Assembly (NCBI GenBank): GCA_950295325.1
Contig: OX485807.1
Coordinates: 37,044,440-37,108,439, forward strand
DNA: 64,000 nt
Source of the DNA: Polytrichum commune
Lineage: Eukaryota > Streptophyta > Polytrichopsida > Polytrichales > Polytrichaceae
Direction of reading: 5' to 3'
Shown: one piece after another, positions 11,661-64,000 of the stretch
Layout of the letters: every line of letters starts with the position of its first letter
Position numbering within the stretch: position 1 is the stretch's first letter
Made by a program: the position numbers and the translations under genes
The notes under the pieces: model-generated
Databases searched by the model: none
Seen by the model: the letters and a program-made list of their open reading frames with translations, nothing else
Told to the model about the DNA's origin: nothing

Positions 11661-12053
11661 GATCGGAGAGCGAGACTAACTAGGAACATGGCGAGGCAAA
11701 TGTTTGTATCACCGTGGTGCTTGCACATCCTCCACTCCATATGAGTTTTTTCTTGCTTCCAACCAATGTGAATTTTTCTTGCTTTCAACCAAAGTTGTTT
11801 TGAGCAATTCCCTTTGAATTGCAAAGCTCCCTTGTTGAAAGCATCTGAATCCCTTTGAGCTTTCTTGGAGCTGGAGAGGCTTCTTATTGCAAAAATGACG
11901 CAGAAGTGGCACGAAGATCAGCACCTGCTTTTGGTAAGGATTGATTGTAGCGCACTTTGTTCCAGAGTGAATTGTTATGTTGGGATAATTAACTTGTAAT
12001 TATGAAGTTGTGATTGTGTGGTTGCTTTCCACTTCCCCTACCTCTCTGGAAAC

Positions 12054-12404
12054 CTCGGGGGGGGGGGGGGGGTAGTCATTGGTTGGAGTAGCAATGTACG
12101 TGCGAACAAATGATAGGGTATTTTAAAAACATGGGGGCAAAAAATTGTAACTGGACTTAAGAGTAATATAGGGTATCAAAAATGGCACTGGACATCTTTA
12201 ATGTACTATAGGGTATGGAATAATAGGTAATTTGGAATTATAAGTAATGCTAGCCATTTTTCTATTAACCCAAAGTAGAAAGTTACATAATGATAGCATG
12301 TGAAAAAAAGAAGAGAATTGAAAGTAATACCCCCCTATAAAATAGTGGTTGTTCGCACCTATGTCCTTAACTTTTTAACACACGGCCCCCCCCCCCCCCC
12401 CGAG
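12054..12404. mobile_element. MITE A1 with homopolymer termini (left arm)
   Basis: 351 bp, flanked by an exact 8-bp duplication CTGGAAAC (12046-12053 and 12405-12412). Termini are CTC followed by 16 G, and 16 C followed by GAG. No coding frame. The 8-bp duplication suggests hAT-type transposition, but the termini are unlike typical hAT ends. Confidence 0.85.
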
Positions 12405-12412
12405 CTGGAAAC

Positions 12413-13257
12413 ACCTAGAACCAATTAATTCCCAACGATAATCAGTATTCCTTCTTGTAACAACCTTTTGTTGGCCAGCGCACTAGAAGTGTTTCTACAT
12501 TTCACAATTCCAGTTTAGAGACCTAGATCAAACCTCACCAATTGAACAACTTTTTATTATTTTTCTTTACCACTAAAGGATATAATATGCTTCAAAAGGA
12601 TATCGGTTGATATTGATTGTTCAGCAGATAGGTAGATAGATAAATAGATACATTCAACTAGAATCAAACAAAGGGAGGAGCATACGTAATTGTGAGCCTC
12701 AGAGCCTCCGTACTGAAGTGCAAAGAGTCACCCATGTTGATCACCTTTGAGAGTTTTTGTCCGTTGCTTTTGGCGGAGAGATAGCAGAGTTTGGCTGCAG
12801 ATTCAAAAGCAAAAGTGGAGAAAGACGCCTAAATTCAAGGCTCTTGACTTCTTTTCTGTATGTCGTGCATTTCTCTCTAATCGCATTGCATAAGTGGAGA
12901 AACATGCGAGACCAAAGGATACTTACGCTCGATTGATAGTTTTTTTTTTGGTTACAAATCAAGTTTGTTTTTTATTATTCAAAATATTAGTTTTCTAAAA
13001 TATTGTGTAAGCCAAAAATTGAGGTGACATTTTGGAATTAAATGTAGATGTCAATTGACATTCATTTTTGTTTTTGAAAACATCATGTGACACTTTGGAT
13101 TTGAGGTTGAACGTCACATGAAATTTGTCAAACATACACACTGGTTGCAAGTGCATCGCCAGATAAGAGGAGAGAGCCAATGATTTCATGATAAGAAAAT
13201 TAGGGATTGGTGAGTCACGATTTTGTTAGTTTGTTGGAGAAAAAGAAGAAAAATCAT
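12413..13257. other. Copia 3' flank / LTR-like DNA (left arm)
   Basis: No gene. About 13003-13150 (minus) resembles the LTR-like sequence at 11341 (TGTATGTTTGACAAA start, GTCAATTGACA tract), so it is probably the 3' LTR of the copia relic. A GATA-type microsatellite lies at 12631-12652. Mirror at 62542-63386. Confidence 0.4.
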
Positions 13258-13336
13258 ATTTCTAAGCGCATAGCTTCAAAATCATCTGCATGAGGAGAGG
13301 ATAGATGACGATGAGGATCACCAGGAGTGGAGACAG
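13258..13336 (-). pseudogene. Copia polyprotein relic, part downstream of the LINE (left arm)
   Basis: On the minus strand the frame interrupted by the LINE resumes after the target duplication and runs about 26 codons (VSTPGDPH.. to MRLEI) to a stop. Mirror at 62463-62541. Confidence 0.6.
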
Positions 13337-13346
13337 TGCTAACATT

Positions 13347-16291
13347 TTTTATTTTTTATTTTTTATTTTTTTTGAGACATAAGGCCAACACGGCCAACGC
13401 CAAATGAATTGAAAGAAGAAAATAGAGAACACGCCCTCACCGAGGGGAGGCGGGATCCCTCGGGCGTGAAACACCGCCACGTAAAAGAAGCCAAGACCAA
13501 CCCAAACCGCGGACAAACTCCCCGACCCACCAAGCCAAGGACTACCCCCACCCCACCGGCCAAGGACAACCCCCTTCCCACCTTACCACCCGCAAGCGGA
13601 CGCTTGCCAGCCTAACTACATTGCCTTTTCCAATTCCACTCAATACGTAAATTGTGTCTCCGACAGAGGACATTCCTAGCTCCCCAAGTTTTGTCAAAGC
13701 CTTGGAGCATGGCCGCCACAGAGAAGCTACTAATTTTAATTTGTTCCACCACCCGGTTTCACGCGGCTTTGGCATAAATAATGAGTTCGTCCCAAATTTG
13801 TTGTTTGACTTTAGAGACATGCCAATGTTCATGATTAAACACTTTGTCATTCCCTTCGATCCAAATGGTCCGAAGAGTTATACCCCTAAGGAGGTGCCAA
13901 ACTTTAATCATTTTGGCATTTTTTTTGGGAATCCTTTCCCCAAACAAAGCTTGCTTCCAGTTGAAGCAATCATAGTTGCTAGTTCTAACCCCGCATATCT
14001 CATGCATGATACAAGTAGCCATCTCCAAGCTCTCGTAGCTTGAATGCAGTCCCAAAATTTATGTTTGACCGATTCACTCGTGTTGGGGAGGCAAAACACA
14101 TTGCTTGGAGATTGAGACCGGCGCAATGTGGGCCCTCCACTTGTTAACATCAACAGCTTTGTGCCAAATTGACCACATGAACGTGGCTTCCTTCCCCGAC
14201 CGGAGTGGATCCCATAGATGTGATTAGTATAACTTGTAGTTACCTAGGAGGTAGCCCTGCCACTGTCCGTTGCACGTGTGGTTCCTGGGTTCCTATTGAT
14301 AATGGCCTCTCTTCCATCCTTAGTTGTGTAATCAAGGAACCGTCCTTCATCGATCCACCTCCGCTTGTCCGGGTTCCACCCAAGGAAGGCCACTTTGCCG
14401 TAGAAAGATATTATTTCTTATTTTTCCCCTTATTTTTAGGTCCTTTATTAGTGTGGATGATCTTAACCTCATGGAAGAAACCCGCCATTTCCCCTAGAGG
14501 GTATTCCCATTCCCTAGGGCATCGTGAGTGAGTGCCTACCGTGTAACATTGTACCGGTAGTGGTAACTTAAGATTATGCCATTGCATGCATGGGGGTGCA
14601 AAGTCATTATCACTACAGAAGACAAACGTCGGGTCCTCTTCCTCGTCCGCATAAAACCCTATCCACTTCCCTGGGAGGGCAGTATATATCCGAGTCTTTG
14701 TCAAGAAGGTGGCGGCATTGACCGGATATCTTGTCCATCACCTCCTTCGAATCTCCTTCCTCCATTGGTGAGAGTTTAAATTTCTCTTGCACACTCTCCC
14801 AGGTAAAAAAGATCTGTGAGTTACTATCCCAAATATTGTCTACACATTGGATGCCTTTGTGGTAGAGGTGAAGGTCTTTAGAGTACATGAACCCCTTATT
14901 AAGGAGTTCCACCCCATCGGACCGCCAAATGTTGGAGTGTAACAATTCCATCTTATTGCAAGGGGGGATTTGGTATAGACCTTTGACCATAACCTTCCAT
15001 GCTTTGCTAATGTGGTTCCAAACCTTGGAGCCCGGGAACCCTTGGTGTTTTTTATTTGTAAACCAATCCAAGCTTACCCCTTAGCTACGCTCTCTTTGCG
15101 GGTTGAACCTAGCCAGTATATACATGAGCATAAGTTGAAGGTTGGATTCACCTGGTTCCATGGCCCTGACTATTCATTTGCATAGCAGACTAGTTTTGGC
15201 TTCCTCCGGATCCACTAGCCCTAGACCTTCATACTTCTTCTTCAGGCAACACTCTCTCCAACTTACTATAGACTTGGTGAGTTGCTCCTTTCCATACCAC
15301 AAGTAGTTTCAAATTGCGCCTCTTATCCTTCTTCAAATCTTATTAGAGCCTCTCCATAGTGTAATTAAGAACCATAGAGTGGAAAGTAGCACATGGTTGC
15401 AAATAACCATTTGTCTTGCCAAAGGCAATTTCATGGTATTCCAGTAGTCTAGCTTCTTTGCAATTTCTGCATAAAGGAAATGGTCCACATCCTGTACTTT
15501 GAGGTTTAGTCCAAAAGGCATGCCTAGTAATTTTGAAAGATCCCCTTCTTCCGCCTACTGCCAATTGTAACCATTAAGCCATTATGGCTTGTGCATATAC
15601 TTATCGAACCAATATGCACACGACTTCTCCCAGTTGATTTCCATTCCCGATGCTGCGCTAAAAACCTTTAAGAGGCGCACTAGTTCATCTACGTCCCGTT
15701 CCTCACCCCTAATCATGAACGAGAAATCATCTGCATATTGCGAAATACTTTGTTATTTTCTCCTCCATGTAAGGATATCCTTCAACCTCCCTTCGGCAAT
15801 TACTTTCTTAATGACATGTGTGAGAACTTCTCCAACAACGAGGAAAAAGATACTAGGCCAATGGGCATCCCTGCCTAACCCCCTGTTCAACTTTAAAGGT
15901 ACTGCCCGGACTTCCATTGAGGTTGACTGCGGCCAATGCGTTTACAATATACGAGTTTGACCCACTTAATGAATGTCTCGTTAATATTTAACTTCTTCAT
16001 TATAGTACTAAATAGAATAATCCAAGAGACCTTATCATATGTTTTTGAGAAGTTTAGTTTAAGAAAAAACTGTTGGTTGTATGGACACCTTTGCCCAATG
16101 TAGGGTATCCTGGGTTAGCACTATGTTATCCAGGATAAATCTCAATGGTAAAAATGCAGTTTGTTCTGGGTTAATTATGTCCCTAAGTATCAGTTGTAGC
16201 CTAAGTTGTAGGGCCTTGGCAAAAATTTATAGCTAGCCGTCAGGAGCGTAATGGGCCTCCAATAATTAAGGTCTTTAGAGTCCCCCTCTTT
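13347..16291 (-). mobile_element. 5'-truncated LINE retrotransposon (left arm)
   Basis: 2945 bp, flanked by an exact 10-bp duplication (TGCTAACATT at 13337-13346 and 16292-16301). On the minus strand it starts abruptly inside the reverse transcriptase (..DLNYWRPITLLT), has the active-site YADD in QYADDFSF and a DWFTNK..HQGF connection region, then the IWHKA/CVFCLPNTSESVKHKFWDC zinc-binding-like end, and finishes with an A-rich tail of AAAAAT units. Endonuclease and ORF1 are missing. Several frameshifts and stops make it dead. Family level (L1-like or another plant LINE clade) not resolved. Confidence 0.85.
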
Positions 16292-16699
16292 TGCTAACAT
16301 TATGAAAACCATACTTAACAAGCAGGGTTTCAGTAAAATGTTGTTGATCTACAAACAAATTCCAACGAGGAAGATCCCATGTATTATGCAAACCAACATA
16401 AACATCAACATCTCCCACTGTCGCTTTGAAATTGGTTTTTAAGTGAGAAATCATTTTGTGAAGGAGGGATTGATCTCTACACATCACCAGACCATCATTT
16501 ACCCAAAGTGCGAGAATTAGTTGAAGGGCTTTAGTAGAGTAAAAAATAGACGGATAAGCCGTGCTTTGGATGAGATCATACTCCTTTACGAAGTCTGAAA
16601 AAGTCTCGTTCCATCCTCGGGCAAATTGCTTGAGGTTGTAAAGACCTTTGAAGGATACGATAGACTTTAAAGAAATGCTAGAACAGGAGCATGCTCATG
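16292..16699 (-). pseudogene. Copia reverse-transcriptase relic (left arm)
   Basis: On the minus strand: LYNLKQFARGWNETFSDF, a degenerate LYGLKQAPRAW motif, then ILALWVNDGLV (a degenerate YVDD active site) and a tail ending ..KYGFHNVS at the LINE insertion. These mark a Ty1/copia reverse transcriptase. The altered active site and stops upstream show it is inactive. Mirror at 59100-59507. Confidence 0.75.
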
Positions 16700-17475
16700 T
16701 GAGCTTGCTCATGCAATAGGGGTTGTATGTCTATGGTCGTAGGGTGCTCTGTGACCGCAACAACAAATCTAGGGACACTAGCTGGAACTTGTTTTGTGTA
16801 CGGATTTGTTTCCCGAGCAGGACATACAACCTTAATATTTTCTTGAGCGCATGTGGAAAATATCCGTGCTTGAAAATGATGCCCATAAAAAAAAATCACC
16901 TTTAATATATGCTTAAAACCCATGGATAGATAGACAATTTATTTGGAAAAACAACATGATTGCACATGTGTGCCCCTCAATGAAGAAAAAATAATTGACA
17001 ACAATGTTGAGAGTTGCGAGTAATGCCTTGGGGTCTTTATTTGTGTGGCCATGTGTGAGCCCAATTATATGCCCACATCTCAAGTTAACCTTAAAAATAT
17101 CCAAACAATAGAAGTAGCATTTCGCTGAGATTAATTTAAAAGGCTAGGATGTATCGAAGATTCAAAAATCTAAATGAGGGAATTAAAGTCGTGATACAGT
17201 GTGAAACTAAAGAAAAAGGACCAAAAGTAAGTACGTAGTGTAACCGGAGTTTGGGCAATGTTTAAGTTCAAGCGGGTTTAGGATAAGGATATTGGTTGTT
17301 TAGGATGAGAGCATTGTTTAGTTAGGGTGAGGGTATTGTTCGATTAAGGGGGGGTCTCCTCCCGAACGGGATTAGGTTCTGTTTGGGGTCAGGAGAGGTC
17401 GGAGGGCGCTCTCTCGCTCTCTCTCTCTCTGCTCTAAGAAAAACGACGGCAGCTAGGAAGAGGCGGCCGAGGGAT
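16700..17475. other. Intergenic DNA between copia relic and MITE B1
   Basis: No gene recognised. About 40 bp at 16723-16765 (GGTTGTATGTCTATGG.. GTAGGGTG) recurs with differences at 19335-19377. A CT microsatellite lies at 17407-17434. Mirror at 58324-59099. Confidence 0.4.
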
Positions 17476-17483
17476 GCCGCTGT

Positions 17484-17893
17484 CACGGGTAGATCATTCC
17501 ATTGTCAAGTTGAACACCACGTGCGACCAAAAAAAATCTTCTTTTGGTAAGTTGCACCACCAAAATGGGTCAAAATTTTATCAATTTTTTTTCATGAGTA
17601 GATATACACAGTACCTATGACGTAGTTAAAAGTGGTAACTAAAGTTGATGATTTGTTTTTTTCATAAAACATACCGTTTCTAACTAGAATGACACAGAAT
17701 TGAACTAAAACAATTACTACAAATAATAAAGATGATTAAAATTTTCAAAAAAGTATACAAAAGTTACTATCAATGGTTATGTATATGTAAAAAAAATATC
17801 GTAAATTTTAAAATTATATATGGCATGTAATATAGGGGTAGCAAACTTTGTCCGCACGTGGTGTCAACTTGACAATGAAGTGACCTCCCCGTG
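17484..17893. mobile_element. MITE B1 (left arm)
   Basis: 410 bp with imperfect terminal inverted repeats of about 40 bp beginning CACGGGTAGATCA and ending ..CTCCCCGTG, each followed inward by a CACCACGTGCG-like motif. Eight-base duplication with one mismatch (GCCGCTGT, GCCGATGT). Non-coding, hAT-like. Confidence 0.85.
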
Positions 17894-17901
17894 GCCGATG
17901 T

Positions 17902-19535
17902 TCGGCAAATTGACAAGGTTGTTGGGACTAACTAATGGCTGAGAGCCACTGCTACTGGAAGAATTAGAGTAGGGAGTGCTCCGTAATTAAAAAAAAAAAA
18001 AAAACCACCATTAGTCAAACTGGGATGGATTGCGGTAGAAGAGGTGGCCGGTTAGGCGGCTGCACCCAACCGATTTGAAGCGCCTCACTGGCAGGGTAAT
18101 TCATTTCCACTCTTATTTTTACTAACTATCCTGCAAGATGCGGACTTCCTGATTGAATCAGGAAGCAATGTGGGTAAGCTAGTGGCCAAATGCCCACTCG
18201 GGGGTCGGACTAAGAAGTTCAAGGCCGGAAGCAATGAAAGCTAGAACTCGGAACGCCAAATGCTAGTTGGAGAGCTGCGGCATTGCCGAAATTATACAGG
18301 TGTTTAAGGGCCAGGTGGTTGCGGTCAGAGGGGCTCTCACCTAGAGAGATCAAGAATGTCGGAGGCTGATACTGAATTTTCCGAGGCCGGCTTCACCCTC
18401 AATTTCGCTACGGGAAGGAGGGCAAATTTCACCAGTGGTTCGGTAGAGTGATCCATTTGGGTGGAGAGAGCAGCCAAGGCTGCTAGTGCGAAGGCTAACA
18501 TGGGCAGTGAGATTCGGGGAAGAATGAGCGAGCTCGGTCTAGGAGGCTCGGCGATTCGGGAAGGCAGAACAGTGTGGAAGATTCACCCCAGGGGATGAGG
18601 GGATCGGAGCAGCCACCAGGTTATTACCGAGCCGGGAGAAGCCAATAAGGAGTTGGCTTTGGGCTGTGCCGGAAGGAGAATGTGGCGTTAGGAAGGAAGG
18701 AGTAGATGGGTTGTGGCTACTGGGTGTGTTGATTGTGTGGGCAGGGAGAAATTGGTTAGGAGCCGGGGAGTGTTTCATTGGGCCACGGTTACGTGGCATT
18801 GTATGGGATCAAGCAATTGATAATGCTGGTTGGGTGTTAATTGTGTGGGGGTAGTGAATTAAGGAGGTAGGTGGGATTAACCTGGTGTGATGATCAGTAG
18901 CTAGGGACGTAGACAAAAGCATTTGTTAATGCTATTGTATGATTTTCTTTCCATTATAAAGTGTGTGGCATATGAGTTCATTCAAGAGCACCTCGAAGGG
19001 AGGGTTAGGAGAAAGTATTAAATCAGACATGTGAGTCTCACACTCCCCCCAGACACTGACGCATTAAAGGGTCGGGGTTTGGTCTCACACCATGTGGGAA
19101 TACCAAGACATTATTCCAACCTCACGACATGGATGTAGAAGGAATCAAACATGGGATCTTCTAGGATGGCGACGCTGACCATAGTGACATGTGGATTTGA
19201 ATATATGCTTAAATTTATCAGTAAACTTGATATACACGCCAAGCTAATGGACTTCAAAATTTTAACAATGTTCAAACATTTTCACTCCAAAATGTAGTAG
19301 CTATGAAAACAAATCCACCTATAGCAATGAAACAAGGTTGTATGTCCATGGATGTAGGGTGCCCTATGACCACAAGAGTAAATTTTATGATATTGCTAAA
19401 ATCTCCTAACTTGATCATTCCCTTAATCACACCAATGGTTCTTCTTCAACAAAACCTTCCTTTCTTATTTACTAAACATTTATGAGGTACTTTCCTAAGG
19501 CCTAAATGTAACTAGTTTAATGCTTTAACCTAATT
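17902..19535. other. Intergenic DNA, moderately GC-rich
   Basis: A poly-A run lies at 17989-18004, longer by one base in the mirror. Short frames at 18666-18854 and 18799-18539 (minus) have no recognisable domain. The GC-rich character of 18000-18850 could mark an old gene or transposon fragment, but I cannot name it. Mirror at 56263-57897. Confidence 0.4.
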
Positions 19536-19790
19536 ACATGAGTGTAGAAAGGGGTATTTTTTTGAGGCATTAGCATACATAGTATACATAAGGGAGAGGT
19601 TTTTTCTTTTCTTTCTTTAGTGTGTATAATCTAAATGGCTATTAAAATCATGAAGTAAAGGTAGATGTATAAAAGATGGGCCCTAAGGTTTAGACAAAAA
19701 AATCAACAATCGATAAGTTAGTTTCATCCAATTTATGTTCTCATCCATTATTGTCATAATATGGTAAAAGTCCCCAATAACTACCTCATC
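19536..19790 (+). repeat. Dispersed repeat G (left arm, outer copy)
   Basis: GGGGTATTTTTTTGAGGCATTAG, AGGGAGAGGT and GGGCCCTAAGGTTTA landmarks as in 27455-27735. Mirror at 56008-56262. Confidence 0.5.
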
Positions 19791-22384
19791 CAATCTTAGT
19801 AGGGTTTGCATATGGGTTCTAGGTATCTACAAACTAGAGACTCTTGAAGCGCTCATGGGTTTCCTTGAGATTTGCTCTTTGGGTTGAAGCTAAGTTGTTG
19901 TGCTCTTATCTTTGTTTGTTTGAAGCAATTGTTGAGTTACATCCTATGGATGAGAAAATGTTCAAAGATTTTGTGAATGAAAAGTGAAAGTAGATTTTAT
20001 TTGCAATAAAAGTATATTGAATCCATGATCTATATTTTCTATTTGTATTGGAAGCATTTATTACATTGAGAATCTTAGTACGAATCTATTTTCTAGCCTA
20101 TCATTAGTATGTATACATATGGTTTTCTCCATAAAATTTTATATAAAGAGGAGTTTAATTTCATAATGATCCATACACATCATTTAGGTTTCTAGTGAAA
20201 AGTCCACCCCAATGCAAAAGGGTGTCACCAATAACACCCTATTTTCAAGCTTTCTTCCAAAGGATGCACAGTCCTACTTACCTCAATAAGGTAGATTTAT
20301 TTATTTGATGATTTATTTTTTAAAAAAATTCCAGGAAGACTATGGAAGTAAAGAGGTAGTAAGAAATTAATTTCTAAATTTCAAATTTCACTTTTTCACT
20401 TTCAAAAATCTACGGGCATTAAACTACTAGATTGGGCTTCTAGACATTTATCTTGGAGGAGAAGGGGAGAGGCTTCAAGGGGCAAAGCATACAAATTTCA
20501 TGTAGTAGCACTTGGAAAAATCACCTGAAATTGTGGCGTCACCCGATGACACCCTATTTTTAGTCTTTTTATTTCCAAACAATGTGGAATCCTACATATT
20601 ACAAGCAAGGTAGAATTTTAATAAAATTGGAAATTAAAGCTCAATATTTGTCACATCTAGAATCCGACCTTTTGGTCAGTTTTCACTATTGCAATGTGTG
20701 ACATGTAATTTGAAGAAACTAAGTACTAAAGTTGCATGTGATACTTGATGATCGAGCACATGAAGCTCCATGATGTTGCACAACCTCATTTCCATGGACT
20801 TGTAACAAATTTTGCCCAAACCAATTAGAATGTAGTGAGGATGTCTTTAGAAGCAGAATGCAAAGCAACGCATGGAACGTATGAATAGGGCATATATACA
20901 ATTATTATTATGAACATGATATGAAACAAATAAGAAAGCATATTATTGGGTGCTTCCATGATGAGTTCAATCCACATTTCTATGACTGAAACCATCCGAA
21001 GATATTGGACAAACAAATTGTAAACGGTCACAAGCTTGAAGAGTGGTTGGAGTTGTCTAGAGCATGTACCTTGGATGGAGAGGAAGCCATGATGCATTGG
21101 CTCAAGTTTTGGATTTTTTTGTTTTACCCATTGGGGCTCCGCCATTAGAGCTAGGAGTCCCACAAATCCTTGATGTTGATTTGGTTCATGTCATCTTTGA
21201 GACTCTAATTTTTTTATTTGACCTCATCTCATATAGTTGTTGTTTCTAAGCAAGACGTGACACTAAAGGAAGATGCAAGGATGCCCACATACAACCTAGC
21301 CAAAATAATTCATCATAAATGAGATGCAATGTTGGGTAAGAACAACACTGACATGTTTAAGTTATTAATGACTAGGCCATAGCACTGGTTCAACATGCTT
21401 GTTACTTCAAATTTTTGGAAAGAGGCATAACTAGGATGGGACCTAGCAAGTCGAAGTTGTTGCGTTGTATTGTTGGACTGTAGTTGTCACCTACATGTTG
21501 TTTTTCCCATCACCAAAGATTAATTGCAAAGACAAATACACACTAGAATTTGTGTTACATTGGGCGTGTTTTCGCCACCTCCAAAGTTGTATTTGCTATG
21601 ATCCACGCAAGAGGCATGTTCTTCTACAAGATCAAAATTGGCATTTTCACTCATACATCATCTTGTGATAGCCTTTTCAAGTATAAAAACATGAAGAGGG
21701 CCATTTGTAAAACCTTTTGAAATTTATGATGGTGACAAAAACGGTGTGTGGGTGGCAAGATGGCGTGTGGTGTGATGTCCAACCTCCTCCGTCTTGATGT
21801 ACAGTCTATACATATCGATACATATTTCACTGCCTTGTAGGCCTCTAGATTATAAAACAACGGGATTAAAGTTGTTTGGTTCATAAAATACTATGTGGGC
21901 TAGTAAGGCATTCCGAGTTCAAAACACCCAATTACTTATGATGAGAAGGTTGTCCATTATAGTATATTCCAAGTCTCATTATCAACAAATGGCCCTTAAT
22001 TGTTTCTTTCAAAGGATGATTGCGGTGAAAGTGGACTTAACTCCTCCCTTGGGTGATAGGACCATATATGTTGTATACAACCATGATAACATTATTTTTG
22101 GAGAACAATATCACATGATAGTCAACAAGTGTCCAAGGTGTTTGTACACATGTATCTTAAAGACGCATAACTCCAAAATTGGTGGAATATGTCCATATAT
22201 TCAATCTAAACACATGTAAATACCACTGGCATCACTACTATCATTAGATGAAGAGAGGATTGGAAGGATTTTGATGCAATTGAATTTGAGAGATGTTGGG
22301 AAGATAGGGCATGAATTATGGATAGGTCAACATTAGATGATTGAAGGTTGGATGTGAGGATTTTTTGATAGAAATTGAAAATGA
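19791..22384. other. AT-rich DNA, probably decayed Ty3 5' part
   Basis: Many short frames. The stretch nearest 22384 probably precedes the Ty3 reverse transcriptase, but stops prevent a domain call. Mirror at 53414-56007. Confidence 0.35.
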
Positions 22385-22749
22385 GTGTTTTCAAAAGATG
22401 TTTTTACGCCATGGGAAAACATTTCATTTGAGTTGTATGAAATAGGGTGTGTTGATCCAAGTATTGTGGCATCAATGGTTAACTTTATGGTTTCACATAC
22501 ACCATGGAATCTACAACCAAATTCAGTACCAAAAGCTCAATTGCTTAAGTTAATAGAGGTGCTCAATGAGAAGATTAAGATGGAAATTTAAGAGCCATCT
22601 ATTGCATCATATTCTAACAGTTGATTTACGGTATCTAAAAAGAATGGAATATTGAGGTTTATTTAAGATGTGTAATTGGTGAATAAGGTCACTATCAAAA
22701 TAATACGTGCAAGTCTAATTGTGAATGAATTTGCTGAAGGTGTTTGTGG
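22385..22749 (+). pseudogene. Ty3/gypsy reverse-transcriptase N-terminal relic (left arm)
   Basis: Shows EPSIASYSNS.FTVSKKNGILRFI, then VNKVTIK..NEFAEG. This is the typical Ty3 start of the palm domain (a peptide like KKNG.LRFI.D...VNK). Several in-frame stops. The frame breaks where MITE B2 is inserted, just before the first catalytic region. Mirror at 53049-53413. Confidence 0.75.
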
Positions 22750-23147
22750 CACGGGGAGGTCACTTCATTGTCAAGTTGACACCACGTGCGGACAAAGTTT
22801 GCTACCCCTGTATTACATGCCATACATAATTTTAAAATTTATGATATTTTTTCTACATATACATAATCATTGATAGTATCTTTTGTATACTTTTTTGAAA
22901 TTTTTAGTCATATTTTTTTTTAGTAAAATTTTTAGTTCAATTCTGTGTCATTCTAGTTAGAAATGGTATGTTTTATGAAAAAAACAAATCAGTTACCACC
23001 TTTAACTATGTCATAGGTATTGTGTATATCTACTCATGAAAAAGAATTGATAAAATTTTGACCCATTTTGGTGGTGCAACTTACCAAAAGAAGATTTTTT
23101 TTGGCCGCACGTGGTGTTCAACTTGACAATGGAGTGATCTACCCGTG
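22750..23147. mobile_element. MITE B2, inserted in Ty3 relic (left arm)
   Basis: 398 bp, opposite orientation to B1. Exact 8-bp duplication GTTTGTGG at 22742-22749 and 23148-23155. Ends CACGGGGAGGTCAC and ..CTACCCGTG. Non-coding. Confidence 0.88.
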
Positions 23148-23155
23148 GTTTGTGG

Positions 23156-24209
23156 AAAATACAATGGGAATGATAGCTAGTTGTTCTACACTAGATGTTG
23201 TTATGTTGAGGTTATGAGCCCAAAATGAGTGCTCATATTTGTTTTATGTTTAGAATCTACTTCGAATTGCATTTGGAGTGTTATTGAAACAATCAAAAGT
23301 ATAAAAAGAGTGAGGCTTGGTGTGGTTTATGTTTTAGGCTTTAAGCCTATTTTGTGTGGTTAAGTAGAAGCTTAGTGATATTAGGGAGTGTTGTGATTAA
23401 GTGAGTAGTGGTTGATGAAGCAAGAGGAAGGTCCTTGGATTTAAATGTTTGATTTAGAACATGCTCTTGTTGGTTTAAAGGGTGAAGGCTTAGTGGATAG
23501 GATAAGGTCCTACTAAGTAGGAGAAGGTTAAGGGGCTTGTGGTCTTGGGTGCCCTCTCTTCCTCCTCCTCTCCTCTCCTCATTCCCTCTCTTCTTCCTCT
23601 CCAGGCAGTTGGGTCGACTGTAGGAGGCTTAATGCAAGCAGTTGGGCCAACGGAATTGGAGGCTGAGGGTAGGCAGCTGGGTCGACTGTAGGAGGCTTAA
23701 TGTAAGCAGCTGGGCCAACGGAATTGTGTGCTGAATGTAGGCAAATGTCTAAGGCATTGAGATTACAATGGTATAACGGGGGGAGGAGCCTAAAAGTGGG
23801 ACATTAGATTAGGTTGTAGTTAGTCAATAGGGATATCACCTAATGCTAATTAGGTAATTAGCCGTTAGCAATTTGGTTTACCACAAGGCATTATAAGGTG
23901 GTATTAGGGGTTGGACTTGTAGTTGAGTTGTTTGGATTGTAATCAAGCACGTTAATGGTGCCATGATAGAGAAAAGTGTTTCTTAACACTTGTAATCTTG
24001 TTATGGAATAAATTGGTGTGTACGGATTGATGAGACATGTGGTGAATTCTCACGAAGTTGGTAAGGGGGAGCTATGTGAAACAAATGTGATCTCCATTCC
24101 CACACCCGGACTAGGACGCTTAAGGGTGTGTGGTTTGGCCTCACAGAGGTGGATTGCTTACATCAAGTCAATGAATCCGTAGTTCAAACATATTGCGGGG
24201 AAAATTAAT
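23156..24209. other. Non-coding stretch replacing the Ty3 polymerase core
   Basis: Lies where the rest of the reverse transcriptase should be. Features: a CT-rich tract (23550-23600), a 68-bp tandem repeat, an AATAAA at ~24007, and an LTR-tail-like CACACCCGGACTAGGACG..TGTGTGG end. It may be a solo LTR or other insertion; no clean ends found. Mirror at 51589-52642. Confidence 0.4.
23604..23739 (+). repeat. 68-bp tandem duplication (left arm)
   Basis: Two units, 23604-23671 and 23672-23739, each made of two half-repeats starting GCAGYTGGGTCGAC and GCAGYTGGGCCAAC. Confidence 0.75.
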
Positions 24210-25559: not shown

Positions 25560-25567
25560 TGAAACTA

Positions 25568-41552: not shown

Positions 41553-41553
41553 C

Positions 41554-46424: not shown

Positions 46425-46432
46425 TATAAATA
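46425..46432 (-). promoter_or_regulatory. Possible TATA element, copy 3
   Basis: Mirror of the element upstream of copy 2, with the same sequence and spacing. Confidence 0.3.
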
Positions 46433-50230: not shown

Positions 50231-50238
50231 TAGTTTCA

Positions 50239-52058: not shown

Positions 52059-52194
52059 TACATTCAGCACACAATTCCGTTGGCCCAGCTGCTTACATTA
52101 AGCCTCCTACAGTCGACCCAGCTGCCTACCCTCAGCCTCCAATTCCGTTGGCCCAACTGCTTGCATTAAGCCTCCTACAGTCGACCCAACTGCC
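52059..52194 (-). repeat. 68-bp tandem duplication (right arm mirror)
   Basis: Mirror of 23604-23739. Confidence 0.75.
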
Positions 52195-52650
52195 TGGAGA
52201 GGAAGAAGAGAGGGAATGAGGAGAGGAGAGGAGGAGGAAGAGAGGGCACCCAAGACCACAAGCCCCTTAACCTTCTCCTACTTAGTAGGACCTTATCCTA
52301 TCCACTAAGCCTTCACCCTTTAAACCAACAAGAGCATGTTCTAAATCAAACATTTAAATCCAAGGACCTTCCTCTTGCTTCATCAACCACTACTCACTTA
52401 ATCACAACACTCCCTAATATCACTAAGCTTCTACTTAACCACACAAAATAGGCTTAAAGCCTAAAACATAAACCACACCAAGCCTCACTCTTTTTATACT
52501 TTTGATTGTTTCAATAACACTCCAAATGCAATTCGAAGTAGATTCTAAACATAAAACAAATATGAGCACTCATTTTGGGCTCATAACCTCAACATAACAA
52601 CATCTAGTGTAGAACAACTAGCTATCATTCCCATTGTATTTTCCACAAAC

Positions 52651-53048
52651 CACGGGTAGATCACTCCATTGTCAAGTTGAACACCACGTGCGGCCAAAAA
52701 AAATCTTCTTTTGGTAAGTTGCACCACCAAAATGGGTCAAAATTTTATCAATTCTTTTTCATGAGTAGATATACACAATACCTATGACATAGTTAAAGGT
52801 GGTAACTGATTTGTTTTTTTCATAAAACATACCATTTCTAACTAGAATGACACAGAATTGAACTAAAAATTTTACTAAAAAAAAATATGACTAAAAATTT
52901 CAAAAAAGTATACAAAAGATACTATCAATGATTATGTATATGTAGAAAAAATATCATAAATTTTAAAATTATGTATGGCATGTAATACAGGGGTAGCAAA
53001 CTTTGTCCGCACGTGGTGTCAACTTGACAATGAAGTGACCTCCCCGTG
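52651..53048. mobile_element. MITE B2' (right arm mirror)
   Basis: Mirror of 22750-23147. Confidence 0.88.
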
Positions 53049-53413
53049 CCACAAACACCTTCAGCAAATTCATTCACAATTAGACTTGCACGTATTATTT
53101 TGATAGTGACCTTATTCACCAATTACACATCTTAAATAAACCTCAATATTCCATTCTTTTTAGATACCGTAAATCAACTGTTAGAATATGATGCAATAGA
53201 TGGCTCTTAAATTTCCATCTTAATCTTCTCATTGAGCACCTCTATTAACTTAAGCAATTGAGCTTTTGGTACTGAATTTGGTTGTAGATTCCATGGTGTA
53301 TGTGAAACCATAAAGTTAACCATTGATGCCACAATACTTGGATCAACACACCCTATTTCATACAACTCAAATGAAATGTTTTCCCATGGCGTAAAAACAT
53401 CTTTTGAAAACAC
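53049..53413 (-). pseudogene. Ty3/gypsy reverse-transcriptase relic (right arm mirror)
   Basis: Mirror of 22385-22749. Confidence 0.75.
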
Positions 53414-56007
53414 TCATTTTCAATTTCTATCAAAAAATCCTCACATCCAACCTTCAATCATCTAATGTTGACCTATCCATAATTCATGCCCTATCTTCCC
53501 AACATCTCTCAAATTCAATTGCATCAAAATCCTTCCAATCCTCTCTTCATCTAATGATAGTAGTGATGCCAGTGGTATTTACATGTGTTTAGATTGAATA
53601 TATGGACATATTCCACCAATTTTGGAGTTATGCGTCTTTAAGATACATGTGTACAAACACCTTGGACACTTGTTGACTATCATGTGATATTGTTCTCCAA
53701 AAATAATGTTATCATGGTTGTATACAACATATATGGTCCTATCACCCAAGGGAGGAGTTAAGTCCACTTTCACCGCAATCATCCTTTGAAAGAAACAATT
53801 AAGGGCCATTTGTTGATAATGAGACTTGGAATATACTATAATGGACAACCTTCTCATCATAAGTAATTGGGTGTTTTGAACTCGGAATGCCTTACTAGCC
53901 CACATAGTATTTTATGAACCAAACAACTTTAATCCCGTTGTTTTATAATCTAGAGGCCTACAAGGCAGTGAAATATGTATCGATATGTATAGACTGTACA
54001 TCAAGACGGAGGAGGTTGGACATCACACCACACGCCATCTTGCCACCCACACACCGTTTTTGTCACCATCATAAATTTCAAAAGGTTTTACAAATGGCCC
54101 TCTTCATGTTTTTATACTTGAAAAGGCTATCACAAGATGATGTATGAGTGAAAATGCCAATTTTGATCTTGTAGAAGAACATGCCTCTTGCGTGGATCAT
54201 AGCAAATACAACTTTGGAGGTGGCGAAAACACGCCCAATGTAACACAAATTCTAGTGTGTATTTGTCTTTGCAATTAATCTTTGGTGATGGGAAAAACAA
54301 CATGTAGGTGACAACTACAGTCCAACAATACAACGCAACAACTTCGACTTGCTAGGTCCCATCCTAGTTATGCCTCTTTCCAAAAATTTGAAGTAACAAG
54401 CATGTTGAACCAGTGCTATGGCCTAGTCATTAATAACTTAAACATGTCAGTGTTGTTCTTACCCAACATTGCATCTCATTTATGATGAATTATTTTGGCT
54501 AGGTTGTATGTGGGCATCCTTGCATCTTCCTTTAGTGTCACGTCTTGCTTAGAAACAACAACTATATGAGATGAGGTCAAATAAAAAAATTAGAGTCTCA
54601 AAGATGACATGAACCAAATCAACATCAAGGATTTGTGGGACTCCTAGCTCTAATGGCGGAGCCCCAATGGGTAAAACAAAAAAATCCAAAACTTGAGCCA
54701 ATGCATCATGGCTTCCTCTCCATCCAAGGTACATGCTCTAGACAACTCCAACCACTCTTCAAGCTTGTGACCGTTTACAATTTGTTTGTCCAATATCTTC
54801 GGATGGTTTCAGTCATAGAAATGTGGATTGAACTCATCATGGAAGCACCCAATAATATGCTTTCTTATTTGTTTCATATCATGTTCATAATAATAATTGT
54901 ATATATGCCCTATTCATACGTTCCATGCGTTGCTTTGCATTCTGCTTCTAAAGACATCCTCACTACATTCTAATTGGTTTGGGCAAAATTTGTTACAAGT
55001 CCATGGAAATGAGGTTGTGCAACATCATGGAGCTTCATGTGCTCGATCATCAAGTATCACATGCAACTTTAGTACTTAGTTTCTTCAAATTACATGTCAC
55101 ACATTGCAATAGTGAAAACTGACCAAAAGGTCGGATTCTAGATGTGACAAATATTGAGCTTTAATTTCCAATTTTATTAAAATTCTACCTTGCTTGTAAT
55201 ATGTAGGATTCCACATTGTTTGGAAATAAAAAGACTAAAAATAGGGTGTCATCGGGTGACGCCACAATTTCAGGTGATTTTTCCAAGTGCTACTACATGA
55301 AATTTGTATGCTTTGCCCCTTGAAGCCTCTCCCCTTCTCCTCCAAGATAAATGTCTAGAAGCCCAATCTAGTAGTTTAATGCCCGTAGATTTTTGAAAGT
55401 GAAAAAGTGAAATTTGAAATTTAGAAATTAATTTCTTACTACCTCTTTACTTCCATAGTCTTCCTGGAATTTTTTTAAAAAATAAATCATCAAATAAATA
55501 AATCTACCTTATTGAGGTAAGTAGGACTGTGCATCCTTTGGAAGAAAGCTTGAAAATAGGGTGTTATTGGTGACACCCTTTTGCATTGGGGTGGACTTTT
55601 CACTAGAAACCTAAATGATGTGTATGGATCATTATGAAATTAAACTCCTCTTTATATAAAATTTTATGGAGAAAACCATATGTATACATACTAATGATAG
55701 GCTAGAAAATAGATTCGTACTAAGATTCTCAATGTAATAAATGCTTCCAATACAAATAGAAAATATAGATCATGGATTCAATATACTTTTATTGCAAATA
55801 AAATCTACTTTCACTTTTCATTCACAAAATCTTTGAACATTTTCTCATCCATAGGATGTAACTCAACAATTGCTTCAAACAAACAAAGATAAGAGCACAA
55901 CAACTTAGCTTCAACCCAAAGAGCAAATCTCAAGGAAACCCATGAGCGCTTCAAGAGTCTCTAGTTTGTAGATACCTAGAACCCATATGCAAACCCTACT
56001 AAGATTG

Positions 56008-56262
56008 GATGAGGTAGTTATTGGGGACTTTTACCATATTATGACAATAATGGATGAGAACATAAATTGGATGAAACTAACTTATCGATTGTTGATTTTT
56101 TTGTCTAAACCTTAGGGCCCATCTTTTATACATCTACCTTTACTTCATGATTTTAATAGCCATTTAGATTATACACACTAAAGAAAGAAAAGAAAAAACC
56201 TCTCCCTTATGTATACTATGTATGCTAATGCCTCAAAAAAATACCCCTTTCTACACTCATGT
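56008..56262 (-). repeat. Dispersed repeat G (right arm, outer copy)
   Basis: Mirror of 19536-19790. Confidence 0.5.
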
Positions 56263-57905
56263 AATTAGGTTAAAGCATTAAACTAGTTACATTTAGGCCT
56301 TAGGAAAGTACCTCATAAATGTTTAGTAAATAAGAAAGGAAGGTTTTGTTGAAGAAGAACCATTGGTGTGATTAAGGGAATGATCAAGTTAGGAGATTTT
56401 AGCAATATCATAAAATTTACTCTTGTGGTCATAGGGCACCCTACATCCATGGACATACAACCTTGTTTCATTGCTATAGGTGGATTTGTTTTCATAGCTA
56501 CTACATTTTGGAGTGAAAATGTTTGAACATTGTTAAAATTTTGAAGTCCATTAGCTTGGCGTGTATATCAAGTTTACTGATAAATTTAAGCATATATTCA
56601 AATCCACATGTCACTATGGTCAGCGTCGCCATCCTAGAAGATCCCATGTTTGATTCCTTCTACATCCATGTCGTGAGGTTGGAATAATGTCTTGGTATTC
56701 CCACATGGTGTGAGACCAAACCCCGACCCTTTAATGCGTCAGTGTCTGGGGGGAGTGTGAGACTCACATGTCTGATTTAATACTTTCTCCTAACCCTCCC
56801 TTCGAGGTGCTCTTGAATGAACTCATATGCCACACACTTTATAATGGAAAGAAAATCATACAATAGCATTAACAAATGCTTTTGTCTACGTCCCTAGCTA
56901 CTGATCATCACACCAGGTTAATCCCACCTACCTCCTTAATTCACTACCCCCACACAATTAACACCCAACCAGCATTATCAATTGCTTGATCCCATACAAT
57001 GCCACGTAACCGTGGCCCAATGAAACACTCCCCGGCTCCTAACCAATTTCTCCCTGCCCACACAATCAACACACCCAGTAGCCACAACCCATCTACTCCT
57101 TCCTTCCTAACGCCACATTCTCCTTCCGGCACAGCCCAAAGCCAACTCCTTATTGGCTTCTCCCGGCTCGGTAATAACCTGGTGGCTGCTCCGATCCCCT
57201 CATCCCCTGGGGTGAATCTTCCACACTGTTCTGCCTTCCCGAATCGCCGAGCCTCCTAGACCGAGCTCGCTCATTCTTCCCCGAATCTCACTGCCCATGT
57301 TAGCCTTCGCACTAGCAGCCTTGGCTGCTCTCTCCACCCAAATGGATCACTCTACCGAACCACTGGTGAAATTTGCCCTCCTTCCCGTAGCGAAATTGAG
57401 GGTGAAGCCGGCCTCGGAAAATTCAGTATCAGCCTCCGACATTCTTGATCTCTCTAGGTGAGAGCCCCTCTGACCGCAACCACCTGGCCCTTAAACACCT
57501 GTATAATTTCGGCAATGCCGCAGCTCTCCAACTAGCATTTGGCGTTCCGAGTTCTAGCTTTCATTGCTTCCGGCCTTGAACTTCTTAGTCCGACCCCCGA
57601 GTGGGCATTTGGCCACTAGCTTACCCACATTGCTTCCTGATTCAATCAGGAAGTCCGCATCTTGCAGGATAGTTAGTAAAAATAAGAGTGGAAATGAATT
57701 ACCCTGCCAGTGAGGCGCTTCAAATCGGTTGGGTGCAGCCGCCTAACCGGCCACCTCTTCTACTGCAATCCATCCCAGTTTGACTAATGGTGGTTTTTTT
57801 TTTTTTTTTTAATTACGGAGCACTCCCTACTCTAATTCTTCCAGTAGCAGTGGCTCTCAGCCATTAGTTAGTCCCAACAACCTTGTCAATTTGCCGAACA
57901 TCGGC

Positions 57906-58315
57906 CACGGGGAGGTCACTTCATTGTCAAGTTGACACCACGTGCGGACAAAGTTTGCTACCCCTATATTACATGCCATATATAATTTTAAAATTTACGA
58001 TATTTTTTTTACATATACATAACCATTGATAGTAACTTTTGTATACTTTTTTGAAAATTTTAATCATCTTTATTATTTGTAGTAATTGTTTTAGTTCAAT
58101 TCTGTGTCATTCTAGTTAGAAACGGTATGTTTTATGAAAAAAACAAATCATCAACTTTAGTTACCACTTTTAACTACGTCATAGGTACTGTGTATATCTA
58201 CTCATGAAAAAAAATTGATAAAATTTTGACCCATTTTGGTGGTGCAACTTACCAAAAGAAGATTTTTTTTGGTCGCACGTGGTGTTCAACTTGACAATGG
58301 AATGATCTACCCGTG
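57906..58315. mobile_element. MITE B1' (right arm mirror)
   Basis: Mirror of 17484-17893 with the same ends and flanking duplications. Confidence 0.85.
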
Positions 58316-59099
58316 ACAGCGGCATTCCTCGGCCGCCTCTTCCTAGCTGCCGTCGTTTTTCTTAGAGCAGAGAGAGAGAGAGCGAGAGAACGCCCTCCGA
58401 CCTCTCCTGACCCCAAACAGAACCTAATCCCGTTCGGGAGGAGACCCCCCCTTAATCGAACAATACCCTCACCCTAACTAAACAATGCTCTCATCCTAAA
58501 CAACCAATATCCTTATCCTAAACCCGCTTGAACTTAAACATTGCCCAAACTCCGGTTACACTACGTACTTACTTTTGGTCCTTTTTCTTTAGTTTCACAC
58601 TGTATCACGACTTTAATTCCCTCATTTAGATTTTTGAATCTTCGATACATCCTAGCCTTTTAAATTAATCTCAGCGAAATGCTACTTCTATTGTTTGGAT
58701 ATTTTTAAGGTTAACTTGAGATGTGGGCATATAATTGGGCTCACACATGGCCACACAAATAAAGACCCCAAGGCATTACTCGCAACTCTCAACATTGTTG
58801 TCAATTATTTTTTCTTCATTGAGGGGCACACATGTGCAATCATGTTGTTTTTCCAAATAAATTGTCTATCTATCCATGGGTTTTAAGCATATATTAAAGG
58901 TGATTTTTTTTTATGGGCATCATTTTCAAGCACGGATATTTTCCACATGCGCTCAAGAAAATATTAAGGTTGTATGTCCTGCTCGGGAAACAAATCCGTA
59001 CACAAAACAAGTTCCAGCTAGTGTCCCTAGATTTGTTGTTGCGGTCACAGAGCACCCTACGACCATAGACATACAACCCCTATTGCATGAGCAAGCTCA

Positions 59100-59507
59100 C
59101 ATGAGCATGCTCCTGTTCTAGCATTTCTTTAAAGTCTATCGTATCCTTCAAAGGTCTTTACAACCTCAAGCAATTTGCCCGAGGATGGAACGAGACTTTT
59201 TCAGACTTCGTAAAGGAGTATGATCTCATCCAAAGCACGGCTTATCCGTCTATTTTTTACTCTACTAAAGCCCTTCAACTAATTCTCGCACTTTGGGTAA
59301 ATGATGGTCTGGTGATGTGTAGAGATCAATCCCTCCTTCACAAAATGATTTCTCACTTAAAAACCAATTTCAAAGCGACAGTGGGAGATGTTGATGTTTA
59401 TGTTGGTTTGCATAATACATGGGATCTTCCTCGTTGGAATTTGTTTGTAGATCAACAACATTTTACTGAAACCCTGCTTGTTAAGTATGGTTTTCATAAT
59501 GTTAGCA
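59100..59507 (+). pseudogene. Copia reverse-transcriptase relic (right arm mirror)
   Basis: Mirror of 16292-16699, with the frame open up to the LINE target duplication. Confidence 0.75.
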
Positions 59508-62452
59508 AAAGAGGGGGACTCTAAAGACCTTAATTATTGGAGGCCCATTACGCTCCTGACGGCTAGCTATAAATTTTTGCCAAGGCCCTACAACTTAGGC
59601 TACAACTGATACTTAGGGACATAATTAACCCAGAACAAACTGCATTTTTACCATTGAGATTTATCCTGGATAACATAGTGCTAACCCAGGATACCCTACA
59701 TTGGGCAAAGGTGTCCATACAACCAACAGTTTTTTCTTAAACTAAACTTCTCAAAAACATATGATAAGGTCTCTTGGATTATTCTATTTAGTACTATAAT
59801 GAAGAAGTTAAATATTAACGAGACATTCATTAAGTGGGTCAAACTCGTATATTGTAAACGCATTGGCCGCAGTCAACCTCAATGGAAGTCCGGGCAGTAC
59901 CTTTAAAGTTGAACAGGGGGTTAGGCAGGGATGCCCATTGGCCTAGTATCTTTTTCCTCGTTGTTGGAGAAGTTCTCACACATGTCATTAAGAAAGTAAT
60001 TGCCGAAGGGAGGTTGAAGGATATCCTTACATGGAGGAGAAAATAACAAAGTATTTCGCAATATGCAGATGATTTCTCGTTCATGATTAGGGGTGAGGAA
60101 CGGGACGTAGATGAACTAGTGCGCCTCTTAAAGGTTTTTAGCGCAGCATCGGGAATGGAAATCAACTGGGAGAAGTCGTGTGCATATTGGTTCGATAAGT
60201 ATATGCACAAGCCATAATGGCTTAATGGTTACAATTGGCAGTAGGCGGAAGAAGGGGATCTTTCAAAATTACTAGGCATGCCTTTTGGACTAAACCTCAA
60301 AGTACAGGATGTGGACCATTTCCTTTATGCAGAAATTGCAAAGAAGCTAGACTACTGGAATACCATGAAATTGCCTTTGGCAAGACAAATGGTTATTTGC
60401 AACCATGTGCTACTTTCCACTCTATGGTTCTTAATTACACTATGGAGAGGCTCTAATAAGATTTGAAGAAGGATAAGAGGCGCAATTTGAAACTACTTGT
60501 GGTATGGAAAGGAGCAACTCACCAAGTCTATAGTAAGTTGGAGAGAGTGTTGCCTGAAGAAGAAGTATGAAGGTCTAGGGCTAGTGGATCCGGAGGAAGC
60601 CAAAACTAGTCTGCTATGCAAATGAATAGTCAGGGCCATGGAACCAGGTGAATCCAACCTTCAACTTATGCTCATGTATATACTGGCTAGGTTCAACCCG
60701 CAAAGAGAGCGTAGCTAAGGGGTAAGCTTGGATTGGTTTACAAATAAAAAACACCAAGGGTTCCCGGGCTCCAAGGTTTGGAACCACATTAGCAAAGCAT
60801 GGAAGGTTATGGTCAAAGGTCTATACCAAATCCCCCCTTGCAATAAGATGGAATTGTTACACTCCAACATTTGGCGGTCCGATGGGGTGGAACTCCTTAA
60901 TAAGGGGTTCATGTACTCTAAAGACCTTCACCTCTACCACAAAGGCATCCAATGTGTAGACAATATTTGGGATAGTAACTCACAGATCTTTTTTACCTGG
61001 GAGAGTGTGCAAGAGAAATTTAAACTCTCACCAATGGAGGAAGGAGATTCGAAGGAGGTGATGGACAAGATATCCGGTCAATGCCGCCACCTTCTTGACA
61101 AAGACTCGGATATATACTGCCCTCCCAGGGAAGTGGATAGGGTTTTATGCGGACGAGGAAGAGGACCCGACGTTTGTCTTCTGTAGTGATAATGACTTTG
61201 CACCCCCATGCATGCAATGGCATAATCTTAAGTTACCACTACCGGTACAATGTTACACGGTAGGCACTCACTCACGATGCCCTAGGGAATGGGAATACCC
61301 TCTAGGGGAAATGGCGGGTTTCTTCCATGAGGTTAAGATCATCCACACTAATAAAGGACCTAAAAATAAGGGGAAAAATAAGAAATAATATCTTTCTACG
61401 GCAAAGTGGCCTTCCTTGGGTGGAACCCGGACAAGCGGAGGTGGATCGATGAAGGACGGTTCCTTGATTACACAACTAAGGATGGAAGAGAGGCCATTAT
61501 CAATAGGAACCCAGGAACCACACGTGCAACGGACAGTGGCAGGGCTACCTCCTAGGTAACTACAAGTTATACTAATCACATCTATGGGATCCACTCCGGT
61601 CGGGGAAGGAAGCCACGTTCATGTGGTCAATTTGGCACAAAGCTGTTGATGTTAACAAGTGGAGGGCCCACATTGCGCCGGTCTCAATCTCCAAGCAATG
61701 TGTTTTGCCTCCCCAACACGAGTGAATCGGTCAAACATAAATTTTGGGACTGCATTCAAGCTACGAGAGCTTGGAGATGGCTACTTGTATCATGCATGAG
61801 ATATGCGGGGTTAGAACTAGCAACTATGATTGCTTCAACTGGAAGCAAGCTTTGTTTGGGGAAAGGATTCCCAAAAAAAATGCCAAAATGATTAAAGTTT
61901 GGCACCTCCTTAGGGGTATAACTCTTCGGACCATTTGGATCGAAGGGAATGACAAAGTGTTTAATCATGAACATTGGCATGTCTCTAAAGTCAAACAACA
62001 AATTTGGGACGAACTCATTATTTATGCCAAAGCCGCGTGAAACCGGGTGGTGGAACAAATTAAAATTAGTAGCTTCTCTGTGGCGGCCATGCTCCAAGGC
62101 TTTGACAAAACTTGGGGAGCTAGGAATGTCCTCTGTCGGAGACACAATTTACGTATTGAGTGGAATTGGAAAAGGCAATGTAGTTAGGCTGGCAAGCGTC
62201 CGCTTGCGGGTGGTAAGGTGGGAAGGGGGTTGTCCTTGGCCGGTGGGGTGGGGGTAGTCCTTGGCTTGGTGGGTCGGGGAGTTTGTCCGCGGTTTGGGTT
62301 GGTCTTGGCTTCTTTTACGTGGCGGTGTTTCACGCCCGAGGGATCCCGCCTCCCCTCGGTGAGGGCGTGTTCTCTATTTTCTTCTTTCAATTCATTTGGC
62401 GTTGGCCGTGTTGGCCTTATGTCTCAAAAAAAATAAAAAATAAAAAATAAAA
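59508..62452 (+). mobile_element. 5'-truncated LINE retrotransposon (right arm mirror)
   Basis: Mirror of 13347-16291. Target duplications AATGTTAGCA at 59498-59507 and 62453-62462. The YADD motif lies near 60063-60074 and the A-rich tail at 62426-62452. Confidence 0.85.
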
Positions 62453-62462
62453 AATGTTAGCA

Positions 62463-62541
62463 CTGTCTCCACTCCTGGTGATCCTCATCGTCATCTATCC
62501 TCTCCTCATGCAGATGATTTTGAAGCTATGCGCTTAGAAAT
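62463..62541 (+). pseudogene. Copia polyprotein relic, part downstream of the LINE (right arm)
   Basis: Continues the copia frame after the LINE, to a stop at about 62541. An LTR-like start (TGTGTATGTTTGAC) follows at ~62649. Confidence 0.6.
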
Positions 62542-63394
62542 ATGATTTTTCTTCTTTTTCTCCAACAAACTAACAAAATCGTGACTCACCAATCCCTAAT
62601 TTTCTTATCATGAAATCATTGGCTCTCTCCTCTTATCTGGCGATGCACTTGCAACCAGTGTGTATGTTTGACAAATTTCATGTGACGTTCAACCTCAAAT
62701 CCAAAGTGTCACATGATGTTTTCAAAAACAAAAATGAATGTCAATTGACATCTACATTTAATTCCAAAATGTCACCTCAATTTTTGGCTTACACAATATT
62801 TTAGAAAACTAATATTTTGAATAATAAAAAACAAACTTGATTTGTAACCAAAAAAAAAACTATCAATCGAGCGTAAGTATCCTTTGGTCTCGCATGTTTC
62901 TCCACTTATGCAATGCGATTAGAGAGAAATGCACGACATACAGAAAAGAAGTCAAGAGCCTTGAATTTAGGCGTCTTTCTCCACTTTTGCTTTTGAATCT
63001 GCAGCCAAACTCTGCTATCTCTCCGCCAAAAGCAACGGACAAAAACTCTCAAAGGTGATCAACATGGGTGACTCTTTGCACTTCAGTACGGAGGCTCTGA
63101 GGCTCACAATTACGTATGCTCCTCCCTTTGTTTGATTCTAGTTGAATGTATCTATTTATCTATCTACCTATCTGCTGAACAATCAATATCAACCGATATC
63201 CTTTTGAAGCATATTATATCCTTTAGTGGTAAAGAAAAATAATAAAAAGTTGTTCAATTGGTGAGGTTTGATCTAGGTCTCTAAACTGGAATTGTGAAAT
63301 GTAGAAACACTTCTAGTGCGCTGGCCAACAAAAGGTTGTTACAAGAAGGAATACTGATTATCGTTGGGAATTAATTGGTTCTAGGTGTTTCCAG

Positions 63395-63744
63395 CTCGGG
63401 GGGGGGGGGGGGCAGTGTGTTAAAAAGTTAAGGACATAGGTGCGAACAACCACTATTTTATAGGGGGGTATTACTTTCAATTCTCTTCTTTTTTTCACAT
63501 GCTATCATTATGTAACTTTCTACTTTGGGTTAATAGAAAAATGGCTAGCATTACTTATAATTCCAAATTACCTATTATTCCATACCCTATAGTACATTAA
63601 AGATGTCCAGTGCCATTTTTGATACCCTATATTACTCTTAAGTCCAGTTACAATTTTTTGCCCCCATGTTTTTAAAATACCCTATCATTTGTTCGCACGT
63701 ACATTGCTACTCCAACCAATGACTACCCCCCCCCCCCCCCCGAG
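63395..63744. mobile_element. MITE A1' (right arm mirror)
   Basis: Mirror of 12054-12404, with the same flanking duplication. Terminal runs are 15 G and 16 C, one shorter than in the left arm, with a neighbouring base change. Confidence 0.85.
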
Positions 63745-64000
63745 GTTTCCAGAGAGGTAGGGGAAGTGGAAAGCAACCACACAATCACAACTTCATAATT
63801 ACAAGTTAATTATCCCAACATAACAATTCACTCTGGAACAAAGTGCGCTACAATCAATCCTTACCAAAAGCAGGTGCTGATCTTCGTGCCACTTCTGCGT
63901 CATTTTTGCAATAAGAAGCCTCTCCAGCTCCAAGAAAGCTCAAAGGGATTCAGATGCTTTCAACAAGGGAGCTTTGCAATTCAAAGGGAATTGCTCAAAA

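Follow-up and report, generated by a model that had tools for sequence, protein, structure and literature searches.

An inverted cluster of oxidase genes within a palindrome

Three identical genes for a glyoxal/galactose-oxidase-type protein (GLOX) were present in the 64,000-nucleotide stretch of Polytrichum commune analysed in this work (the window; Table 1), and their orientations along it (left, right, left) make up an inverted cluster. All three genes are open. Both domains that define this class, Glyoxal_oxid_N and GO-like_E_set, were detected with Pfam. A canonical GT-AG intron of 364 bp (GTAAGT...TTTGCAG) splices the two exons into 531 codons, and the joined product aligned across the splice with protein P0008 of Ceratodon (GANFNNVRP vs. 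GANFNAVRP). Cys114, Tyr165, Tyr379, and His380 were invariant in the 10 aligned proteins and also lined up with the solved chain 9n3u (Cys, RWY, and YHS), and the histidine of the E-set domain ("THS/THT") appeared in all seven alignment rows extending that far. We take these residues to be the Cys-Tyr cofactor pair and the Tyr-His-His copper ligands, the positions being assigned from galactose-oxidase motifs. The presence of both domains and the retention of these residues support the view of the copies as putative copper-radical-oxidase-type enzymes, and a signal-like N-terminus, judged by eye, suggests that the product may be secreted.

Relatives of the GLOX protein were sought by scoring the 8000 candidates with most words in common, of which 1027 proteins matched and the best 120 were listed. 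Among the matches listed, the closest came from a 4.1-kb JGI contig (99%) and from ENA (89 and 86%); the closest with a species assigned were from mosses (69 and 65% for Ceratodon purpureus, 63 and 62% for Physcomitrium), fern, lycophyte, and liverwort proteins ranking below them, an order that makes a moss the likely source. The 531-aa product resembles the two best Ceratodon matches in length (530 and 531 aa), and both Pfam domains and the conserved active-site positions are common to the plant proteins and the copies described here; in contrast, the latter are three identical genes in an inverted cluster. The copies have a glycine in "LA(G)TGIARM" (exon 1), a residue that the nine remaining proteins of the alignment all lack, the three relatives with 86-99% identity carrying arginine at this site; in this alignment, the glycine is a private change common to the GLOX copies.

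Comparison of the window with itself by BLASTN gave one giant inverted pair, 11798-33373 vs. 64000-42425, with 21,577 columns at 99.958% identity. Over the 21,576 bp of the arms there were seven substitutions and two one-base indels (K2P 0.0003). The length of this inverted match (21.5 kb) excludes chance, and the right arm stops at position 64000 because the window stops there, so that the arm length is a lower bound. As in other large gene-bearing palindromes, the arms are >99% identical, the spacer is unique and each arm carries an intact gene. The preliminary description of this DNA had reported a near-perfect palindrome with arms of at least 21.5 kb, a coordinate sum of 75798/75799 between mirrored features and an intact oxidase gene per arm, all of which were borne out, the last as a two-exon, 531-codon GLOX gene in each; the arm differences listed below reproduce the sum, which shifts by one because of the one-base indels in poly-C and poly-A runs. 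Its picture of two gene copies held for the arms and left out the third identical copy, at 1-2772.

Table 1. Positions of the genes, palindrome parts and identity tracts in the window.
Feature	Position	Strand	Remarks
GLOX gene, third copy	11..1970	-	Identical; outside the observed arms, within tract 1-2772
Identity tract common to the three copies	1..2772	-	Reverse complement of 28938-31709; extends past the window start
Segment of the third copy absent from both arms	2773..4427	.	1,655 bp; AAC microhomology at the junction
Diverged continuation of the third copy	4428..5575	-	K2P 0.052 (437 sites) and 0.084 (704 sites)
Left palindrome arm	11798..33373	+	21,576 bp or more; 99.958% against 42425-64000, reverse-complemented
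Cluster of arm differences	17409..18034	.	Four of the six interior differences in 626 bp; flanks the 410-bp repeat 17484-17893
Left-arm counterpart of 4428-5575	27065..28940	+	About 712 bp inserted at 27775-28486
GLOX gene, left arm (531 aa)	29740..31699	+	PF07250, E=1.3e-96; PF09118, E=1.9e-25
Exons and intron of the left-arm gene	29740-31013; 31014-31377; 31378-31699	+	Exon 1; intron; exon 2 including TAA (from splice sites and alignment)
Inner fade-out	33325..33373	.	49 bp with three of the nine arm differences; followed by the gap of about 116 bp
Core (spacer)	33374..42424	.	9,051 bp; no near-identical inverted match to itself
Left old shoulder	34542..35622	+	34542-34797 and 35407-35622, about 609 bp between
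Right old shoulder	41820..42282	-	Contiguous; inverted match to the left shoulder
Right palindrome arm	42425..64000	-	Mirror of the left arm; truncated by the window end
GLOX gene, right arm	44099..46058	-	Identical copy; mirrors the difference-free stretch 18035-33324

Limits of the identity between copies

The nine differences between arms were located at 12384, 12386, 17409, 17473, 17989, 18034, 33325, 33345, and 33355, and none occurred across the 15.3 kb from 18035 to 33324. Since 12384 and 12386 lie at the edge of a poly-C run, 17989 lies within a poly-A run, and the final three fall in the last 49 bp, the solid interior differences are just three (17409, 17473, and 18034), all of them C:G/T:A transitions. 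The clustering of four of the six interior differences in 17409-18034 gave P 0.0014 by simulation, for a region picked after inspection. The 410-bp repeat at this place forms an inverted pair within each arm with 22750-23147 (92%); the four differences lie on both sides of the copy at 17484-17893 and none inside it.

At the inner edge, identity decayed in 33325-33373 while the two sequences remained alignable, ahead of the gap (chance of three or more of the nine differences falling there 9.7e-7, the region again being chosen after inspection). The segment 42309-42424 on the right has no left counterpart, and AGG forms a microhomology at this gap if the short resumed homology is genuine; the latter (42308-42289) matches in 17 of 20 bases, which is weak, as an equal score against this stretch was reached by 39 of 2000 30-mers drawn at random from the window. 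A repeat of about 220 bp spans the right junction, 42424/42425; it is complete at this site, and so are its copies at 34710 and 41333. In the left arm, it is truncated at 33373.

Beyond this edge, inverted homology was found between 34542-34797 and 42282-42012 (83.8% with gaps counted, K2P 0.115) and between 35407-35622 and 42016-41820 (88.4% with gaps counted, K2P 0.031). A third inverted match, 34818-34926 vs. 42418-42310 (K2P 0.23), pairs two copies of a dispersed repeat only. The unique core and the older, diverged shoulders proposed previously were both supported by the self-comparison. The shoulder pattern would fit an older, longer palindrome but also two repeat clusters. With a length of about 450 bp, gaps, and a content made up in part of dispersed repeats, the shoulders argue only weakly for the age of the palindrome. 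In the left core, a segment at about 33580-34160 has CAGGGTTGTCTA...TAGACAACCCTG ends and TTACTCAG on both flanks; it is probably another transposon insertion, widening the left shoulder.

Tract 1-2772 was identical to the arms in 2772 of 2772 positions, 1,176 of them non-coding, so that selection at the protein level cannot account for this match. The identity ends where both arms lack 1,655 bp, with the three bases AAC on both sides of the arm junction. The segment concerned contains the 3' end of a small transposon, together with a hairpin element. In the third copy, a transposon-like repeat of about 230 bp runs uninterrupted across position 2772, as it does in its relatives at 34972, 41555, and 8994; in its relative in the core, either flank bears ATTTAGTGC (nine bases). 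The deletion is therefore in the arms, and the third copy is ancestral at this point, its DNA being contiguous and native where the switch occurs. One copy was recently overwritten by, or copied from, another. The third copy shows that copy-to-copy transfer took place at this locus at least once, which suggests that copies recently overwrote one another.

The hairpin element itself (2999-4279, 1.28 kb), present in the third copy and deleted from the arms, is 82% identical to its own reverse complement and has ATCTTAC on both flanks. The predicted RNA fold of the region 2990-4290 reached -707 kcal/mol, a value calculated without a shuffle control.

Conversion, recent duplication or assembly fault

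Three accounts of this arrangement were weighed. We lean, with modest confidence, towards a real nuclear palindrome with a cluster of genes for putatively secreted GLOX-type enzymes, homogenised by ectopic gene conversion. The inverted copies would be older than their current identity. Gene conversion (ectopic homologous recombination) would mend a break in one of them with another as the template, and copying would end at or near the two gaps (1,655 bp and about 116 bp), where alignment is lost. As an outcome, the gene and its surroundings would be kept uniform while the shoulders drift, and crossing over between arms would be expected to invert the core as a by-product. Both visible ends of the identity tracts lie at gaps or no more than 49 bp from them, each with a 3-bp microhomology, and ends at gaps are a prediction of conversion because copying stops where the partners no longer align. 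Conversion is favoured over a recent duplication and over an assembly fault because the tract ends sit at gaps and the third copy shows transfer; conversion itself we infer from indirect support. The preliminary description had already invoked conversion from arm to arm, which is plausible and strengthened by the third copy, a recent inverted duplication still being a competing account.

According to that account, which we consider rather unlikely, older inverted dispersed repeats would have been the site of a break or a stalled fork, from which fold-back or a template switch led to the outward copying of >21.5 kb in one step, with no need for continuing conversion; the repeat at 33266-33373/42310-42532, or the shoulders, would be candidate seeds. 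The near-zero divergence of the arms agrees with such an event, as do the dispersed repeat copies within the shoulders and the positions at which identity switches, within or next to dispersed repeats and at microhomologies of 3 bp; the tract of the third copy could likewise derive from a similar single template switch via AAC, without conversion. However, the arms and the third copy together demand at least two copying events, and the differences between arms should be evenly spread, whereas a segment of 626 bp contains four of the six interior ones, a clustering based on few differences in a region defined post hoc. An artefact of assembly or library preparation, in which a fold-back or a collapsed repeat was unrolled twice and polishing equalised the copies, appears improbable. 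Polishing could yield the exact 2,772-bp identity at a third place, and miscalls at methylated bases might mimic the only three interior differences outside homopolymers, all of which are C:G/T:A; against this, the 9,051-bp core has two unlike inner junctions, the right one within the full-length dispersed repeat, the homology of the shoulders extends past the arms, and in the third copy the tract is followed by a diverged continuation of its own, the transposon that spans the switch being intact. A simple fold-back read, already disfavoured previously, is made unlikely by the spacer and its junctions. Of the differences between arms, also put forward at that time against an artefact, just three interior ones lie outside homopolymers, which makes this argument weaker than stated.

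Comparison with known palindromes and remaining sequence content

Descriptions of large converting palindromes come from animal Y and W chromosomes and, among plants, for example from willow. In those of human and apes, mirror arms with genes are held near-identical by arm-to-arm gene conversion (PMC7023750, PMC5704215). The near-identical mirror arms with genes found here are similar; the Y palindromes are larger, carry testis-expressed genes and are located on a non-recombining chromosome. Palindromes W.P1 and W.P2 of the W chromosome of Salix purpurea have arms of about 20 kb that are on average >99% identical and contain genes, and W.P1 has a partial "pre-arm" copy of 12 kb next to it (PMC7023750). 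In the same source, conversion was inferred for a 3-kb region with the aid of a second species, and the spacer is given as 2.6 kb (text) or 3.6 kb (table). The palindrome of P. commune is like those of willow in its near-identical arms of this size class (about 20 kb), the genes in them, the short spacer and the extra partial copy alongside. In contrast, its spacer is 9.05 kb vs. 2.6-3.6 kb, and its gene is GLOX, whereas willow, an angiosperm, has a ZW system and carries RR, SMR, HCT, and others in its arms (same source).

No description of a palindrome of this type in a moss was found in the accessible parts of the open-licence literature, including PMC9946827, PMC6511839, and PMC8000587. Efficient homologous repair is known in the moss Physcomitrella, according to the available text of PMC4990234. 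A moss example would test whether a non-recombining sex chromosome is required or efficient homologous repair is enough, and the window offers natural markers in its two tract ends at sequence gaps, its third donor copy and its invertible core. A wider reading, which we put forward tentatively and regard as doubtful, is that an inverted cluster of three or more oxidase genes in a haploid-dominant plant would be kept uniform by recombination between the arms and with the neighbouring third copy, with structural gaps bringing the copying to a halt. A bryophyte would then show concerted evolution like that of Y and W palindromes, and the locus might be on a U or V sex chromosome.

Additional coding content was surveyed by a Pfam scan of 38 ORFs, beyond two GLOX pieces, out of 140 stop-to-stop frames of at least 65 aa at about 1-42500; many of the remaining frames were antisense to GLOX, overlapping or short, and short exons may escape such a scan. 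In these 38 of 140 frames, covering the arms, core, and left flank, no host genes other than GLOX were found above the cut-off, where the only further hit was a copia RVT_2 piece at 16278-16694 (E=1.5e-9). Below it were two integrase pieces, one of them similar to Integrase_H2C2 (24607-24831, E=5e-5, just under the cut-off), a weak copia-gag-like piece in the core (37649-37867), and two presumably chance hits, zf-RRPl_C4 at 14616-15080 (E=0.034) and Peptidase_C65 at 26593-26880 (E=0.048). The ORF at 14616-15080 had 25 relatives among 29 candidates. Neither non-coding RNA at the Rfam gathering level nor tRNA by ARAGORN with the bacterial code was detected in the window. An organelle inverted repeat was ruled out by the GT-AG intron in GLOX and by the retrotransposon relics in the arms. 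A 339-bp repeat with CTCGGGG...CCCCGAG ends occurred in two copies with 96% identity (12060-12398 and 25571-25909), flanked by differing 8-bp duplications, CTGGAAAC and TGAAACTA. These ends and the unlike duplications speak against the two copies being LTRs of one element; they are probably two small DNA transposons.
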